A stretch of DNA of 64,000 nucleotides from Halomarina oriensis (GTDB lineage Archaea > Halobacteriota > Halobacteria > Halobacteriales > Haloarculaceae). The position numbers were made by a program, and so were the translations under genes. Location of the stretch: assembly GCF_009791395.1 (NCBI RefSeq), contig NZ_WSZK01000008.1, positions 1 to 64,000 of the forward strand. The letters run 5' to 3'. The notes beneath the pieces were generated by a model that worked only from the letters and a program-made list of their open reading frames with translations, was not told the DNA's origin and did not search any database. Positions 86 to 11,969 of the stretch are shown here, piece by piece. Position 1 is the stretch's first letter. Every line of letters begins with the position of its first letter.

Positions 86-994
86 ATGGCATCACCTACG
101 ACCGACCTGCTGGCGTGGCTCGTCGTCGGCCTGTTCACCGGTGGCTCGCTGCTGGTGACCGTCGACCGTCGCCTCGGCCGGTCGCTCTGTGTCCTCGCGT
201 GGGGCGTCTTCGCCGTCTTCTGGGCGCTGCTGGTCCCCCACTTCACCTTCGTCGTCCAGAGCGCCATCGAGGGCGTCGCCGCCGCCGTCGCGGTTCCGGG
301 CTGTCTCTACGCCGGCTACCTCCTCGCTCGCGGCCGTGACTCGTTGCTGGTGCTCTCGCGGGCCGTCGGCGTGATGGGGCTCATCTACCTCCCCTTCCTC
401 ACGAGCGACGCGCTCCGAGGCTGGCTCATCGAGACCGTCGCCGTCCAGACGCAGTGGGGTATCAATCTCCTGGGGTACTCCCCCGAACTGATGACCAGCG
501 AGTCCGGTTACGAGTCGCTGTTCGTCTTCCGGCGTCACGGCCTGGTCAACGCCACCGAAATCGTCCTGATGTGTACCGGTCTTGGGAGCCTCACCATCTT
601 CGGTGGTCTCATCGCGGCCGTCGACGCGCCGCTACGCCGGAAACTACAGGCGGCGGCCGTCTCGATACCGGTCATCTACGCACTCAACCTCGTGCGCAAC
701 GTCTTCATCGCCGTCGCGTTCGGCGACCAGTGGTTCCAGTGGCTCTACGGCCCCGCGAACGCGGTGTTCGCCCTCGACTCCCCCGAACTGGCGTCGTTCT
801 ACGTCGCCGACCGCGTGCTCGCCCAGTCGCTGTCGGTCGTCGCGCTCGTCGCCATCCTCTGGCTGGTCGTCAACCGACTCCCCGAACTGCTCGTCGTCGT
901 CGAGGACGTGCTCTACATCCTCACCCGCCGCGAGTACGACCTCGAACGCGCGTTCGACCTCGACACGACCGAGAACGCCTCGGCCGCGGACTGA
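86..994 (+). CDS. artA: Archaeosortase A, first of two tandem copies
   Basis: Polytopic membrane transpeptidase of 302 aa that processes PGF-CTERM proteins, cutting the C-terminal helix and allowing lipid anchoring to archaeal membrane lipid. Seen: seven to eight hydrophobic segments and the archaeosortase core with Cys163 in CTGLGS, Arg204 in NLVRNVF and Arg243 in VADRV. The Cys-to-Arg-to-Arg spacing (41 and 39) is the same as in the characterised Haloferax volcanii ArtA as I recall it (C173/R214/R253). The next gene, a paralog, starts 6 bases after the stop, so the two are probably cotranscribed. A PGF-CTERM substrate (BtuF-like, 10809-11969) lies in the same window. Family assignment is secure; which copy is the ancestral ArtA is not decided here. 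Confidence 0.93.
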   Translation: MASPTTDLLAWLVVGLFTGGSLLVTVDRRLGRSLCVLAWGVFAVFWALLVPHFTFVVQSAIEGVAAAVAVPGCLYAGYLLARGRDSLLVLSRAVGVMGLIYLPFLTSDALRGWLIETVAVQTQWGINLLGYSPELMTSESGYESLFVFRRHGLVNATEIVLMCTGLGSLTIFGGLIAAVDAPLRRKLQAAAVSIPVIYALNLVRNVFIAVAFGDQWFQWLYGPANAVFALDSPELASFYVADRVLAQSLSVVALVAILWLVVNRLPELLVVVEDVLYILTRREYDLERAFDLDTTENASAAD

Positions 995-1000
995 CCCGCC

Positions 1001-2011
1001 ATGACCGCCCTCCTGCAGACCGGAGACGCACTCCTCGACGCGCTCGCAGCGCTCGGCGTCCTCTCGGACCCGCTGGCGTGGCTGGTCGTCGCCACGTTCC
1101 TCGGCGCGGCGCTCCTCGACGTCGCGGAGCGACGCGAGGCCCGGCCGCTGGCCGTCGTCGGGTGGGTGCTGTTCGGCCTGTTCTGGCTCACATTGGTCCA
1201 CCACTTCGTGGTCGTCCAGAAGAGCATCGTCGAGGGCGTCGGCGTCGCGCTCGCGGTTCCGGGCTGTCTCTACGCCGGCTACCTCCTGGCGAACGGCCGC
1301 GAATCGCTGATGGTCCTCTCGCGGGCCGTCGGCGTGATGGGCCTCGTGTTCTTCCCGATACAGGCTATCGGCCCGGCCCGCCAGTTCCTCATCGAGTCGG
1401 TCACTCAGCAGACCGAGTTCGTCATGGGACTGCTCGGCCAGACCGCGCCGACGGACTTCACCGTCGTCAGCGGGGCGACCGTCGACCCACCGCGCCGTGA
1501 CTACCAGAACACCTTCGAGTTCTACCAGGGCGACCACCGCATCACCTACACCATCCTCGTCGCGTGTACCGGTCTCGGGAGCATGGCTATCTTCGCGGGT
1601 CCCATCCTCGCGGTCCGGGCACCGTGGCGACGCAAACTCCGGGCGCTGGCGGTGAGCATCCCCGTCATCTACGGACTCAACATCGCCCGCAACGTCTTCA
1701 TCGCCATCGCGTTCGGCCAGAGTCGCCTCCAGGTGTTCCCGACCCTCGTCATGGACCTGTTCGGGACGACCGACCCCTACATGGTGTCGTACTACGTCGC
1801 CGACCGACTGCTCGCACAGTTCCTGTCGGTCGTCGCACTCGTCGGCATCACGTGGTTCGTCGTCCGCGAACTGCCCGAAATCGCGGTCGTCCTCGACGAC
1901 GCGCTCTACCTGCTGACCAGGAAGGAGTACGACCTCGCGGCCACGCTCGGGGCGGACCCGTCGGGCGACCGGCCGACCGCGGCGGCGACCGACCGGCCGA
2001 CCGACGACTGA
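1001..2011 (+). CDS. Archaeosortase A paralog, second tandem copy
   Basis: 336-aa membrane protein homologous over its whole length to the preceding gene. The stretch around the first catalytic residue (CTGLGS) and the segment SIPVIYGLN-ARNVFIA are near-identical between the two. The catalytic set is intact: Cys189, Arg230 and Arg269, with the same 41/39 spacing. Differences are an N-terminal extension of about 17 aa and a 10-15 aa longer extracellular loop before the Cys (about 150-180), where substrate recognition could differ. The C-terminus is Asp/Arg/Thr-rich and cytoplasmic. It is likely cotranscribed with the upstream copy. Duplication followed by specialisation is inference; a redundant copy is the alternative. 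Confidence 0.9.
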   Translation: MTALLQTGDALLDALAALGVLSDPLAWLVVATFLGAALLDVAERREARPLAVVGWVLFGLFWLTLVHHFVVVQKSIVEGVGVALAVPGCLYAGYLLANGRESLMVLSRAVGVMGLVFFPIQAIGPARQFLIESVTQQTEFVMGLLGQTAPTDFTVVSGATVDPPRRDYQNTFEFYQGDHRITYTILVACTGLGSMAIFAGPILAVRAPWRRKLRALAVSIPVIYGLNIARNVFIAIAFGQSRLQVFPTLVMDLFGTTDPYMVSYYVADRLLAQFLSVVALVGITWFVVRELPEIAVVLDDALYLLTRKEYDLAATLGADPSGDRPTAAATDRPTDD

Positions 2012-2035: not shown

Positions 2036-2923
2036 TCAGACGGTGGACTCCTCGACGAGCGCCGCGGGTGCGTCCGCGAGTTCGCGGAGGGCGTCGGCTT
2101 CGAGCAGGTGGAGGTCGCCGGGAATCACCAGCAGGTGGAGGGGGCCCCCGAACGCCCGGTCGGCGAGGGTGTCGAGTCGGTCGGCGGCGACGAGCGGGTC
2201 GGGGCTCCCGGCACGACAGACCGCCACGGCGAGCGTCTCGGGGAGCGCCCCGCTCAGCAGGTCCGCCGCGTAGTCCGCGGACATGAACTCCTCGTGTTCG
2301 CGTTCGTCGGTCGCCAGTTCGGCGTTGCGGCGGTCGGTCGAACTCCCCCGCACCTTGATATCGAGGAAGACGAGCGTGTGGAGGCCACGTTCGCGGTTGG
2401 CCGCGATGGTGTCGAGGACGCTGTCGGGGACGCCGTCGCCCCCGTCGTCGGAACGCGTCGCGTTCTGGCTGGCACGTGAACCGCGCCGGGATTCACGACT
2501 GTGGACGAACGGGAACGGGAGCGTCGTCGCCTTCCCGAACCGGTAGTTCTGGAGGCCCGTCAGCGAGGAGGCGGCGGCCTCGGCGGTGGTGCCGTGGACG
2601 ACACGCGTCTCGATGCCGCGTGCTTCCGCCCGCATCCGCAGGTCGACGTGTGTCGTCGAGATCATCGTGTCGCCCGCAGTGAAGAAGACGACGTCGACGT
2701 CTTCGGCCGCATCGAGGATGGGGTCGGGGTTCTGTTCGACACCGGCACGGTCCCGAACCTCGACGTCGCAGTCGTGGAACGTCTCCAGTTGGTCGAGCGA
2801 GCTTCCCATCAGCCGCGAGGTGTAGAACTCGGCGAAGACGCGGTCGGCCGCTGCGAGCGTCTCTCGGCCCTCGAGGGTCACCGAGCGCTCGTCCCAGAGT
2901 CCCAGTCCGACGAACGTGAGCAT
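2036..2923 (-). CDS. dphB: Diphthine synthase
   Basis: S-adenosylmethionine-dependent methyltransferase that makes the diphthine intermediate on the conserved His of elongation factor 2. Seen: start MLTFVGLGL with the GLGL SAM-binding loop at residues 6-9, the family segment GDTMISTTH near residue 85 (GDPLVATTH in most members), and the YRFGKATTLPFP block near 127-138. At 295 aa it is longer than the usual roughly 255-265 aa. The excess is a polar low-complexity insert (about residues 142-165) after the SAM-binding half, a type of acidic/Arg/Ser loop common in haloarchaeal proteins. Its 3' end faces the archaeosortase pair and its 5' end is divergent from trm5. Confidence 0.92.
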   Translation of the reverse strand: MLTFVGLGLWDERSVTLEGRETLAAADRVFAEFYTSRLMGSSLDQLETFHDCDVEVRDRAGVEQNPDPILDAAEDVDVVFFTAGDTMISTTHVDLRMRAEARGIETRVVHGTTAEAAASSLTGLQNYRFGKATTLPFPFVHSRESRRGSRASQNATRSDDGGDGVPDSVLDTIAANRERGLHTLVFLDIKVRGSSTDRRNAELATDEREHEEFMSADYAADLLSGALPETLAVAVCRAGSPDPLVAADRLDTLADRAFGGPLHLLVIPGDLHLLEADALRELADAPAALVEESTV

Positions 2924-3026: not shown

Positions 3027-4007
3027 ATGGAAGTGCCCTGTGTCCGCGTCCGCCCGCAGGACGGCGAGGCGACGCGGAGTGCCCTCGCCGCCCGTGACCT
3101 GGTCGACGGCGACCACGAGATTACGGTCGAAGAGGGCTGGCTCTACGTCCCCGTCACCGAGGCGAGTGTCGCCGCGAACGCAGGGTACGACGTCGTCGCC
3201 CACGACGTGGCGGCGCGGCGCGGTCAACTGATGCCCGCCGACGTCCTCGGCGAGGAACCCAGCTACGAGCGTCTCGGCGACATCGCCATCGTCGACGAGG
3301 AGGACCCCGACAGGGCACGGGCCGTCGCCGACGCCATCGTCGAGAGCGACCTCCCGGTCGAGAGCGTCCTCAACCGCGCGTCGAAGGTCAAGGGCGAACT
3401 CCGGGTACGAGACTGGGAGGTACTGGCCGGGGACACCCGGACCGTCCACCGCGAGTACGGCTACGAGTACGTCCTCGACCTGGCGACGGTCTACTTCTCG
3501 CCGCGTCTCGCCACCGAACGTCACCGAGTCGCCCGGCAGGTCGACGCGGGCGAACGGGCGTTCGACATGTTCGCCGGCGTCGGCCCGTTCGTGATTCCCT
3601 TCGCGGGACGTGGGGCGACCTGCGTCGGGACGGACCTCAACGGGGCGGCCATCGAGTTCCTGCTGGAGAACGCGGAACGCAACGGCGTCGCCGACCGGGT
3701 CACGGCCGTCGCGAGGGACGTCCGCGAGGTGGCGACCGACTACGAGGCCTGGGCGGACCGACTGGTGATGAACCTCCCACACAGCGCCGACGCGTTCCTC
3801 GATACGGCCGTCGCGCTGGCGGGCGACGACTGCGTGGTTCACTACTACGACATCCAGCACGACGAGGACCCGTTCGGCCCCGGCGAGCGAGCCATCCGCG
3901 ACGCTGCGGGGTCGAGTTACGAGGTGCGCGTCGAGAACCGCCACGTCGTCCGGTCGTACGCACCCCACGAGGAGAACGTCTGTCTGGACGTTCGGCTCAC
4001 GCGGTGA
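3027..4007 (+). CDS. trm5: tRNA (guanine(37)-N1)-methyltransferase Trm5
   Basis: Class I methyltransferase that forms m1G37 next to the anticodon, preventing frameshifting. Seen: an N-terminal D1-like region (residues 1-60), a D2 segment with ASKVKGELRVRDWEVLAGD (about 118-136), the SAM motif I FDMFAGVGPF (about 179-188), acidic motif GTDLNG, and the catalytic NLPH motif at 249-252 (NPPY/NLPR/NLPH type). Length 326 aa is normal for archaeal Trm5. It is divergent from dphB with about 100 bases between them. The first Met after the intergenic region gives the family N-terminus. No wybutosine-specific partner is seen nearby. Confidence 0.93.
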   Translation: MEVPCVRVRPQDGEATRSALAARDLVDGDHEITVEEGWLYVPVTEASVAANAGYDVVAHDVAARRGQLMPADVLGEEPSYERLGDIAIVDEEDPDRARAVADAIVESDLPVESVLNRASKVKGELRVRDWEVLAGDTRTVHREYGYEYVLDLATVYFSPRLATERHRVARQVDAGERAFDMFAGVGPFVIPFAGRGATCVGTDLNGAAIEFLLENAERNGVADRVTAVARDVREVATDYEAWADRLVMNLPHSADAFLDTAVALAGDDCVVHYYDIQHDEDPFGPGERAIRDAAGSSYEVRVENRHVVRSYAPHEENVCLDVRLTR

Positions 4008-8704: not shown

Positions 8705-9616
8705 TCACTCGTCGCCGCCGTCCGGCCGGGCGTCGACCCGGCGGGAGTCCTCGGGGCCGCCGTCGGGTAGCCCCACCGTACCGTCCGCCTCGCCCGTCGT
8801 GTCCGTACTCCGGCGCTCCGCGACGACGTCCTCGAGAGGGGTCTCGTGGTCCGCCAGTGCGGTGACGGTGGGCGTCCCCGTGACGGGGTTGGACCGGACG
8901 GCCGTCCGCGTCCCGAACGCTCGTTCGAGGACCGGTTCGTCGAGCACCTCTTCGGGCGGGCCGGCGGCGAGGACGCGACCGCCGGCGACGACCAGCAACG
9001 CGTCGCAGAACCGCGCGGCGAGGTCGAGGTCGTGGATGGCCGCCAGGGCGGTCTTCCCCTCGTCGACGAGCGACCGGACGAGCGAGAGCGTCCGCACCTG
9101 GTGGTTGATGTCGAGGCTGGCGGTCGGTTCGTCGAGGAGCAAGACGGGCGTCTGCTGGGCCAGCGCACGGGCGAGGAGGACGCGCTGTCGCTCCCCGCCG
9201 CTGACCGCCCCGACCGAGCGGTCGGCGAGTGTGTCGACCTGTGCGCGTTCCAGTGCCGCGTCGACCGCGTCGCGGTCGGCCGTCGTCGCCCGCTCGAACC
9301 GACCACGGTGGGCGGTTCGTCCCATCGCCACCACCTCGCGGACCGGGAAGTCGAACGCGAAACTCGTGTCCTGGGGGACGGTCGCCACGCGACGGGCGAG
9401 CGCCCGTGCGGAGAGCGACGCCACGTCCTCGCCGTCGACGGTCACGGACCCCGAATCGGGTGTCAGGATGCCGTTGACGGTCCTGAGTAGCGTCGTCTTT
9501 CCCGCCCCGTTGGGGCCACAGACGCCGACGAGCGTCCCCGCCGCCACGTCGAACGAGACGTCGTCGAGCACCCGTTCGCCGCCCAGCGATACGCTCACGC
9601 CGTCGCCGTGTATCAC
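8705..9616 (-). CDS. btuD: Cobalamin/heme-type ABC importer ATPase
   Basis: 303-aa ATP-binding subunit of a BtuCDF/FecE-type importer. Seen: Walker A GPNGAGKT at 34-41, Q-loop VPQDTSF, signature SGGERQ at 139-144, Walker B VLLLDEP at 158-164 and the switch His in IHDLD. A C-terminal extension of about 45 aa beyond the ATPase is polar and acidic, ending DARPDGGDE; it is unlike the compact E. coli subunit and of unknown role. The gene overlaps btuC by 4 bases (ATGA), so translation is coupled. Substrate could be cobalamin, heme or siderophore; the BtuF-like binding protein next door favours cobalamin. Confidence 0.88.
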   Translation of the reverse strand: MIHGDGVSVSLGGERVLDDVSFDVAAGTLVGVCGPNGAGKTTLLRTVNGILTPDSGSVTVDGEDVASLSARALARRVATVPQDTSFAFDFPVREVVAMGRTAHRGRFERATTADRDAVDAALERAQVDTLADRSVGAVSGGERQRVLLARALAQQTPVLLLDEPTASLDINHQVRTLSLVRSLVDEGKTALAAIHDLDLAARFCDALLVVAGGRVLAAGPPEEVLDEPVLERAFGTRTAVRSNPVTGTPTVTALADHETPLEDVVAERRSTDTTGEADGTVGLPDGGPEDSRRVDARPDGGDE

Positions 9617-10755
9617 AGTGTCCGCACCTCCCGGCTACGAAGCAGGTAGAGGAAGAACGGTGCGCCGAGCGCGGCGGTGACGATACCGACGGGGAGTTCG
9701 GCGGGTCCCGACCGTGCGACGGCGTCGGTGGCGACGAGGAAGACGCTCCCGGCGAGCGCGCTCGTCGGGAGGAGGAGGCGGTGGTCGGGGCCGACCAGCA
9801 GGCGCATCACGTGCGGGACGACGAGGCCGACGAAGCCGACGACGCCCGCGACGGCCACCGCGGCGGCCGTGACGAGACTCGACACCGCCAGCAGGACGCG
9901 CTTGGTCCGTTCGACCTCGATACCGAGTGCGTGAGCGTCCTCCTCGCCCATCAGGAGGACGTTCAGGTCGCGGCTGTAGACGGCGAGCACGACGAACCCG
10001 ACGAGCGCCAGCGGGAGCGTGACGACGACGTCGTTCCACGAGGCGGCCGAGAGGTGGCCCATGAGCCAGTAGAGCGCCTGTCCGACCGACTCGTCGGCCT
10101 GCAACAGGAGATACGACACGACCGCACCCAGAAGCGTCTGGATAGCGACGCCCGCGAGGAGGAGCGTGGCGACGGGCGTCCGCCCGCCGTCGGTGGCGAC
10201 GAGGTAGACGGTGAACGCCGTCACGAGTGCGCTGGCGAAGGCGAACACCTGGAGGGGACCGACCAGCGGGACCAGCCCCAATAGCGGGATCGCGGCGACG
10301 AAGCCGGGAAAGACGATGGTGGTGACCGCACCGACGGCCGCGCCCGTCGAGACGCCGACGATGGAGGGGTCGGCCATCGGGTTCCGAAAGAACCCCTGCA
10401 TGACCGTCCCGGCGCTGGCGAGTGCGAACCCCACGACGGCGGCCAGCGCGACGCGTGGCGCACGTAACTGGACGACGATGGTCTGGGCCGACGCGGGCAC
10501 CGCGAACCCGAACGGTCGGACGTACTGCAGGTCGACGCCGAGCCACGGAACCTGTCCCACGAGCGGGACGCCGAGCGCACCCCCCGTAACCGAAAGCCCC
10601 GCGGGCACGCTGACGGCGTTCAACATCGCCTTGGCGACGACGACGGGCGAGAGGTCGACGGTGCCGTAGGCGACGCTCCCGAGCGAGACGGCGACCAGCG
10701 CGGCCGCTAACCCGCCACACCACAGGCCGAGTCGTCGCCACGACTGCACGTTCAC
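9613..10755 (-). CDS. btuC: Cobalamin/heme-type ABC importer permease
   Basis: 380-aa FecCD-family permease with about ten hydrophobic segments. Seen: the family blocks LRAPRVALAAVVG, GxVMQGFFRNPMADPSIVGVSTGAA (about 140-165), the cytoplasmic loop GEEDAHALGIEVE that contacts the ATPase, and the PHVMRLLVGPDHR segment. Translation starts at GTG 10755. The 53-base gap to the divergent btuF contains TATTTATCTAA on this strand about 17-27 bases upstream, a likely TATA box for a near-leaderless btuCD message. No B12 riboswitch is visible. Confidence 0.9.
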   Translation of the reverse strand: MNVQSWRRLGLWCGGLAAALVAVSLGSVAYGTVDLSPVVVAKAMLNAVSVPAGLSVTGGALGVPLVGQVPWLGVDLQYVRPFGFAVPASAQTIVVQLRAPRVALAAVVGFALASAGTVMQGFFRNPMADPSIVGVSTGAAVGAVTTIVFPGFVAAIPLLGLVPLVGPLQVFAFASALVTAFTVYLVATDGGRTPVATLLLAGVAIQTLLGAVVSYLLLQADESVGQALYWLMGHLSAASWNDVVVTLPLALVGFVVLAVYSRDLNVLLMGEEDAHALGIEVERTKRVLLAVSSLVTAAAVAVAGVVGFVGLVVPHVMRLLVGPDHRLLLPTSALAGSVFLVATDAVARSGPAELPVGIVTAALGAPFFLYLLRSREVRTL

Positions 10756-10808
10756 AAGCCTGGTTGGATTAGATAAATACTTGTTGCACTGGTGTGCATC
10801 CCGAGTCG
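10756..10808. promoter_or_regulatory. Divergent btuCD/btuF promoter region
   Basis: A 53-base AT-rich gap (GGATTAGATAAATACTTG at its centre) between two divergent transport genes. On the minus strand TATTTATCTAA is a good haloarchaeal TATA element for btuCD. On the plus strand the TAGATAAATA element precedes btuF by about 30 bases. Shared control of importer and binding protein is therefore likely. No protein-binding palindrome stands out. Confidence 0.5.
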
Positions 10809-11969
10809 ATGCGACGAATCACGCTCGCCTTGCTCGTCGTCCTCTCGGTCCTCGCGGGACCGGCGACGGCGATGGGCGCGGCGGCCCCCGAGACGGCCGC
10901 AGTGAGCCAGGAATCGACACAGTGTAGCGACCCGTTCATCGGCACGGACGCGACCGGTACCGAGGTGACCGTCGACGAGGACCCCGAACGCATCGTGACG
11001 CTCGGAGCCGACATCGCCCAGATACTGTGGGAGATAGACGCCGAGGAGAAGGTCGTCGGGATGCCCGTCCGTTCGTACACCGCGTACCTGAACGGTTCCG
11101 ACTCGCGCGAGGACGTCTACACCGAGGACGGCACCGCCGTCGACGTGGAGTCCGTCGTCGCGCTGGAACCGGACCTCGTCGTCGCGCCGGCCATCATCCC
11201 GAACTCGACGGTCGAGCGGTTGCGCGAGACGGGCCTCACGGTCTACCGGACCGGCTTCCCGGCCTCCATCGACGGTATCTACGAGAAGACCGAACTCGTC
11301 GGCCGACTCGTCGGCGAGTGCGAGGCCGCGAACGAGACGGTCACGGAGATGCGCGACCGCGTCGAAGCGGTCGAGACGGCCGTCGAGGGCCGCGAGCGCC
11401 CCGGCGTCCTCTACGTCTCCTTCGGCTTCACCGCCGGGAACGGCACGTTCGTCGACGAGGTACTCACGACGGCGGGCGGGACCAACCTCGCCGCCGAAGC
11501 CGGTGTCACGGGGTTCAAGGAGTTGAACGAGGAGGTCGTCGCCGACACGAACCCGGAGTACGTCGTCTACCCGTCGGGCGGCAGCGTCCCCGAGGGTGAA
11601 CCGTACAGTTCGACGACCGCCGTCCAGCAGAACCAGACGCTCGAAGTCGACGCCAACTACATCAGTCAGGCCGGTCCGCGCGTCGTCATCGCGCTGGAGA
11701 ACGTCGCCGAGACGCTCCACCCCGAGGCGTTCGAGAACGGCACCGAGACGCCGACGGAGCGCCCCACCGGCACCGAGACGAGTGACGGCGAGCCGACCAC
11801 CGCCGGCGACGGTGACCCCGGAGCCACCGCGACGACCCAACCGGTCGCCACCGACGGCGGTGCGACGACGGCCGAGACGACCACCTCCTCCGGAACCGGC
11901 CCCGGCTTCGGTGTCGTCGTCGCACTCGTCGCACTCGTCGCCACGGCGCTGCTCGCCCGCCGCGACTGA
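10809..11969 (+). CDS. btuF: PGF-CTERM-anchored cobalamin-type substrate-binding protein
   Basis: 386-aa periplasmic-binding-protein-like receptor for the adjacent BtuCD. Seen: a Sec signal peptide (residues 1-26, [12 protein letters not shown]...ATA), the two-lobed TroA/BtuF fold (45-305) with [18 protein letters not shown] and LEPDLVVAP, a Thr/Glu/Asp-rich linker (about 310-362), and the tripartite C-terminus PGF (365-367), a hydrophobic helix and LLARRD. This is a PGF-CTERM signal cut and lipid-anchored by archaeosortase A; the two archaeosortases at 86-2011 are the candidates. Start 10809 is preferred over a Met five codons earlier because it opens directly into the signal peptide. Confidence 0.92.

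Follow-up and report, generated by a model that had tools for sequence, protein, structure and literature searches.

Exosortases and archaeosortases are known from cognate pairs in which one enzyme type serves one type of C-terminal signal, among them ArtB with VPXXXP-CTERM. The enzymes of those pairs belong to different families, whereas at the locus described here both enzymes belong to the ArtA family and the two signals are subclasses of PGF-CTERM. The closest described system is that of Haloferax volcanii, for which excerpts of the published work describe one ArtA (HVO_0915), with the residue Cys-173, and a PGF motif (PMC7157517). In contrast, Halomarina oriensis carries two adjacent ArtA types, and the residue preceding the motif falls into two classes. 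The likeness to H. volcanii lies in the membership of both enzymes in TIGR04125, in their conserved Cys and Arg columns, and in the presence of PGF-CTERM substrates and of an S-layer-like protein in the genome.

Two archaeosortase A genes at the start of a contig

The window, the whole stretch of 64,000 nucleotides that was analysed, begins at base 1 of contig C49 in a genome of 4.07 Mb that shares its genus with Halomarina rubra. It opens with two archaeosortase A genes on the plus strand, artA1 (86–994, 302 aa, ArtA1 group in the trees described below) and artA2 (1001–2011, 336 aa, ArtA2 group), separated by 6 bp. Both reading frames are complete and free of internal stops; the proteins share 51% identity across 306 aligned columns and score 325 and 328.5 bits, respectively, against NCBIfam TIGR04125, for which the cut-off is 75 bits. 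On translation, the catalytic cysteine of artA1 is Cys163 (codon 572–574, plus strand), which shares its column with the cysteine of other ArtA proteins, and Arg204 (695–697) and Arg243 (812–814) match the arginine columns in the same way. The artA2 residues are Cys189 (1565–1567), Arg230 (1688–1690) and Arg269 (1805–1807), again on the plus strand and with the same 41/39 spacing. The cysteine and the first arginine are kept in 60/60 aligned ArtA rows and the second arginine in 45/60; in H. volcanii ArtA we take the arginine residues to be Arg214 and Arg253. Judged from their sequences, both genes encode archaeosortase A, with a predicted role in cleaving PGF-CTERM proteins and attaching them to lipid.

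The first-pass annotation of this DNA had claimed two intact tandem archaeosortase A genes, on which the complete frames, the TIGR04125 scores and the shared Cys-Arg-Arg spacing agree, and had given the second copy an N-terminal extension and a longer loop before the cysteine, both of which were confirmed. Within this loop, residues 159–161 of ArtA2 (1475–1483, plus strand) occupy three columns that are filled in 21/21 ArtA2 rows and gapped in 18/18 ArtA1 rows of family f1. This insertion is among the columns that best separate the types, so that the longer loop characterises ArtA2. The types also differ at residues 5–6 ahead of the cysteine, which are Thr/Ser-x in ArtA1 and Tyr-Thr in ArtA2, and at two further positions, Trp216 versus Arg242 and Phe238 versus Tyr264. 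These type-specific residues could perhaps contact the tail of the substrate.

With regard to the upstream side, the first 614 bases of the window recur at the end of contig C37 (L005 4788–5404, plus strand, 99% identity), and C37 is therefore the upstream neighbour. Two further artA matches on C37 suggested a third gene; they are this redundant contig end. The repeat carries small frame-breaking errors, and a count of copies could mistake such an artefact for an extra artA. Upstream on C37, also on the plus strand, lie an open reading frame that we named DIGR, a label coined in this analysis (L005 3836–4816), and the gene of an S-layer-like protein with a QPGFG tail (L005 979–3711). Downstream, artA2 is followed by dph5, encoding diphthine synthase (2036–2923, minus strand; TIGR00522, 233 bits), which usually adjoins ArtA2-type genes in family f1, and by a trm5-like tRNA methyltransferase gene (3027–4007, plus strand) that is part of the conserved neighbourhood. 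The resulting order (S-layer-like PGF-CTERM gene, DIGR, artA1, artA2, dph5, trm5) is found unbroken in H. rubra. The S-layer-like protein carries a PGF-CTERM domain and a signal peptide of the haloarchaeal surface type, and partially matches the model of the ArtA-dependent S-layer glycoprotein (160 bits; cut-off 1100).

Further into the window, an open reading frame on the plus strand (10794–11969) encodes a predicted substrate of ArtA2, a secreted protein whose PGF-CTERM tail (11889–11963; TIGR04126, 45 bits) is of the GPGFG class. In the region 9613–11969 this protein resembles an ABC substrate-binding protein and adjoins a permease-like gene, both names coming from a reading of the sequence.

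Tail classes and enzyme types

There is a second C-terminal signal class, whose occurrence across genomes follows the enzyme type. The first-pass annotation had proposed to count the PGF-CTERM proteins and to look for such a class. In the H. oriensis genome, eight matches lie above the cut-off, one of which (L182) lacks PGF; the S-layer-like protein, encoded two genes ahead of artA1, ends in QPGFG, and the other PGF tails that were read are GPGFG. In genomes with ArtA1 only, 27/27 tails are [Q/L]-x-GF (Q 23, L 4; 11 genomes from two families). The P of PGF is often replaced by A, S, T or H in this class, and the motif is therefore written without it. In genomes with ArtA2 only, a label that for most of them rests on genus and single copy rather than on a tree, 74 of the 79 tails are G-[P/A]-GF, four have S, one has V and none has Q or L (49 genomes). 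Genomes holding both enzymes hold both tail classes: the 57 tails of six ArtA1+ArtA2 genomes comprise G 31, Q 18, S 4, L 2, R 1 and V 1, some of the S rows resembling matches inside a tail, as in SSGFGPGFG, and the 23 tails of nine genomes that combine ArtA1 with a third lineage, B, comprise G 12, Q 9, L 1 and A 1. Lineage B, a separate clade, accompanies G tails, and the G class is therefore not tied to one clade.

The rule was noticed post hoc. When only tails of TIGR04126 matches were considered, Q or L was found in 19/19 tails of ArtA1-only genomes (from 24 matches in five genomes) and G in 32/32 tails of ArtA2-only genomes (from 50 matches in six genomes). A stricter tail pattern gave 16/16 Q/L for ArtA1-only genomes and, among 77 tails of ArtA2-only genomes, 70 G, five S, one V and one unreadable. 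Six ArtA1-only genomes whose loci had been gathered for other purposes before the rule emerged (G108, G111, G261, G326, G334 and G360) provided seven tails, all with Q. Fisher's test gave p = 2e-14 for the TIGR04126-match tails and 4e-25 for all loci, but related genomes do not provide independent tails, and contrasts within a genus therefore weigh more. In Halomarina, Q tails are confined to the two ArtA1-bearing genomes, and the S-layer-like protein beside artA has Q in ArtA1-bearing Halomarina and G (GPGFG) in the ArtA2-only Halomarina G006 and G001. In genus g10, G tails are restricted to genomes that have a second enzyme.

The exceptions to the rule are one S-PGF tail adjoining an ArtA2-type gene (G009) and the R, V, S and A tails of the two-enzyme genomes. 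ArtA2-only genomes have five tails without G, and four of them sit on loci that also hold a divergent ArtA-like gene (L125, L126, L127 and L129), and these genes with S/V-PGF tails are a possible third pairing of enzyme and signal. The divergent genes are unlinked and have Tyr at the second arginine; four of their six loci, those just named, include an S-PGF or V-PGF protein. Around the plasmid-borne artA of named records, neighbouring PGF tails were looked for and none was found.

Our preferred reading, to which we give a probability of roughly 0.7, is that two parallel archaeosortase lines operate: ArtA1 would process proteins with a [Q/L]-x-GF tail, of which the one example read here is the S-layer-like glycoprotein, and ArtA2 those with a G-P-GF tail, namely the other PGF tails read. 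By analogy with what has been proposed for H. volcanii ArtA, each enzyme would cut near its own motif by means of the cysteine thiol and hand the protein to a membrane lipid. The residue before P(x)GF would be read by the enzyme, perhaps through the loop ahead of the cysteine, and each enzyme would handle mainly its own tail class.

If instead the enzymes were redundant and the tail residue tracked ancestry, Q-tailed surface proteins having moved with artA1 as a block and without any enzymatic specificity, it would be natural that the sole Q tail read in the H. oriensis genome lies two genes from artA1, and related genomes do share tails by descent. We nevertheless regard this as unlikely, because ArtA1-only genomes have Q or L on different proteins at unlinked places (7/7 tails in G145 and 5/5 in G016), H. 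rubra holds another Q tail that is unlinked, and g10 genomes lack the G class exactly where they lack the second enzyme.

DIGR, PssD and the lipid question

DIGR has a Tat-like RR start, and C233, H266 or H268, and D291 are invariant in 63/63 rows. Beyond weak Tat-signal matches, no meaningful match was found in Pfam, NCBIfam or PDB sequences, and a single-sequence structure model reached a mean pLDDT of 37.5. The Cys-His-Asp order recalls transglutaminase-like cysteine enzymes, although searches of Pfam, NCBIfam and PDB sequences did not connect DIGR with them; canonical transglutaminase motifs, sought for comparison, were absent from the loci examined, and no DIGR relatives were found among plasmids or viral contigs. 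In the class sample of 391 genomes, DIGR is present in 56, adjoining artA in 21, pssD in 18 and neither in 17. It lies beside artA in 16/16 DIGR-bearing genomes of family f1 (in G148 as a fragment) and in five of f14. The 18 genomes with DIGR beside pssD belong to f6 and f7 and represent 18 of the 40 DIGR genomes outside family f1 (L217–L236, L277–L296); the identity of pssD was confirmed by Pfam at five DIGR-adjacent loci. All 56 DIGR genomes have pssD. As DIGR is linked separately to artA and to pssD, which belong to one pathway, a role in protein lipidation is likely, probably in the anchoring pathway of ArtA1. A strict need for DIGR is countered by G108, in which an ArtA1-type enzyme and a Q tail occur with no DIGR match.

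In the class sample, pssD is present in 338/391 genomes and, by our own count, in 303/306 outside family f1 and 35/85 inside it. It is thus absent from 50/85 genomes of family f1 versus 3/306 elsewhere in the class. PssA-like genes were found in 391/391 genomes, and their survey is uninformative. In the 54-row tree, the rows of family f4, which may include Haloferax, lie nearer to ArtA2 than to ArtA1, with weak support.

These distributions bear on a second alternative, in which the enzymes are split by lipid donor and not by tail, ArtA1 needing the PssD product (archaetidylethanolamine) and ArtA2 another lipid, with the tail residue following indirectly. Within family f1, pssD occurs in 17/17 typed-ArtA1 genomes versus 15/65 taken as ArtA2-only, a comparison that leaves out G107 (no artA) and G110 and G112 (untyped copy), all three of which have pssD; the near-universal presence of pssD outside the family and the adjacency of DIGR, the partner of ArtA1, to pssD in 18/56 genomes are also in keeping with such a split. 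However, the losses of pssD cluster by genus, and the pattern is therefore a lead rather than a result; moreover, ArtA2-only genera with pssD exist (g4, g36 and g13), and PssA-like genes are universal in the sample. In the published excerpts, ArtA-dependent processing in H. volcanii needs PssD (PMC7157517), yet the f4 rows lean towards ArtA2. We therefore consider a split by lipid donor improbable.

A combined scheme adds a lipid difference to the division of labour by tail class: two chemically distinct haloarchaeal anchoring pathways would coexist, ArtA1 with DIGR as a second, unrecognised enzyme joining the Q/L class to a PssD-made lipid, and ArtA2 joining the G class to another lipid, which would permit the loss of pssD. 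We put this forward tentatively and as a rather unlikely extension. Of the two explanations offered at first sight for keeping both enzymes, different substrate sets or different membrane lipids, the former is most likely and draws strong comparative support from the two tail classes, and the latter is suggested only by the distribution of pssD.

Prevalence, age and meaning of the paired genes

At least one TIGR04125 match is present in 390/391 genomes of the class sample and in 139/146 of family f1. Linked artA pairs were found in 9/391 class-sample genomes, all nine within family f1 (own count), and in 20/146 genomes of that family, from five genera. The pair is therefore unusual among haloarchaea, as the first-pass annotation had supposed. 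That annotation had also held that many haloarchaea with the same pair would speak against its reading; the family counts go part of the way towards this, in that the pair is not peculiar to this genome, although they do not speak against a division of labour. Two other kinds of multiple match were seen in the survey. Four f4 genomes (G287, G308, G385 and G422) have a 3'-terminal artA fragment besides the full gene (model positions 182–270, 89.7 bits, 133 aa frame), with near-identical scores, and G442 has two artA matches of equal score and frame length on contigs C3 and C5, representing either an assembly duplicate or a genuine second copy.

For family genomes with a completeness of 90% or more, and with the untyped g37 genomes G109, G110 and G112 excluded, the median PGF-CTERM count is 15 with a pair (n = 14), 6 with ArtA1 only (n = 8) and 8 in the others, mostly with a single ArtA2 (n = 84). 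A larger number of substrates was considered as the reason for two enzymes in Halomarina and was rejected: the two Halomarina genomes with pairs have eight matches each versus four to eight in the five other Halomarina of this set, and these overlapping counts imply that substrate number does not account for the pair here.

Two ArtA trees were calculated, one with 73 of 81 rows (two of G150 and six divergent rows left out) and one with 54 chosen rows including other families, and in both the two copies of the window fall in different groups. In the 54-row tree, the ArtA2 group comprises 21 rows and one f5 row (support 100/98), the ArtA1 group comprises 17 of the 18 labelled rows with modest support (85/78), one f3 row lying outside, and the second copies in genus g10 form lineage B, distinct from both (100/100). 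Genes of lineage B (for example L094 7069–8037) have Gly or Ser at the second catalytic arginine in 10/10 rows and are otherwise intact. Each copy of the window is 78–80% identical to its own H. rubra counterpart, versus about 50% between the copies, and forcing the Halomarina copies into one clade costs 73.9 log units (p-AU 4.3e-6). The pair therefore consists of one gene from each of two old lineages, and the duplication that was to be dated in this lineage did not hold up; an ancient duplication or a transfer may have brought the lineages together, and the tree fits either. A recent tandem duplication retained for dosage, which the head-to-tail arrangement with 6 bp between the genes might suggest, is highly improbable given these identities and the rejection of a Halomarina clade under the model used.

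Among the ArtA papers found, in a search that mostly left subscription papers outside, no title or abstract opening described two ArtA classes, and novelty is not assured. If the division of labour between ArtA1 and ArtA2 is true, the clients of an archaeosortase would be predictable from one tail residue, which would provide a handle on ArtA recognition beyond PGF. DIGR, found through its linkage to artA and pssD, is a candidate new protein of archaeal protein lipidation.
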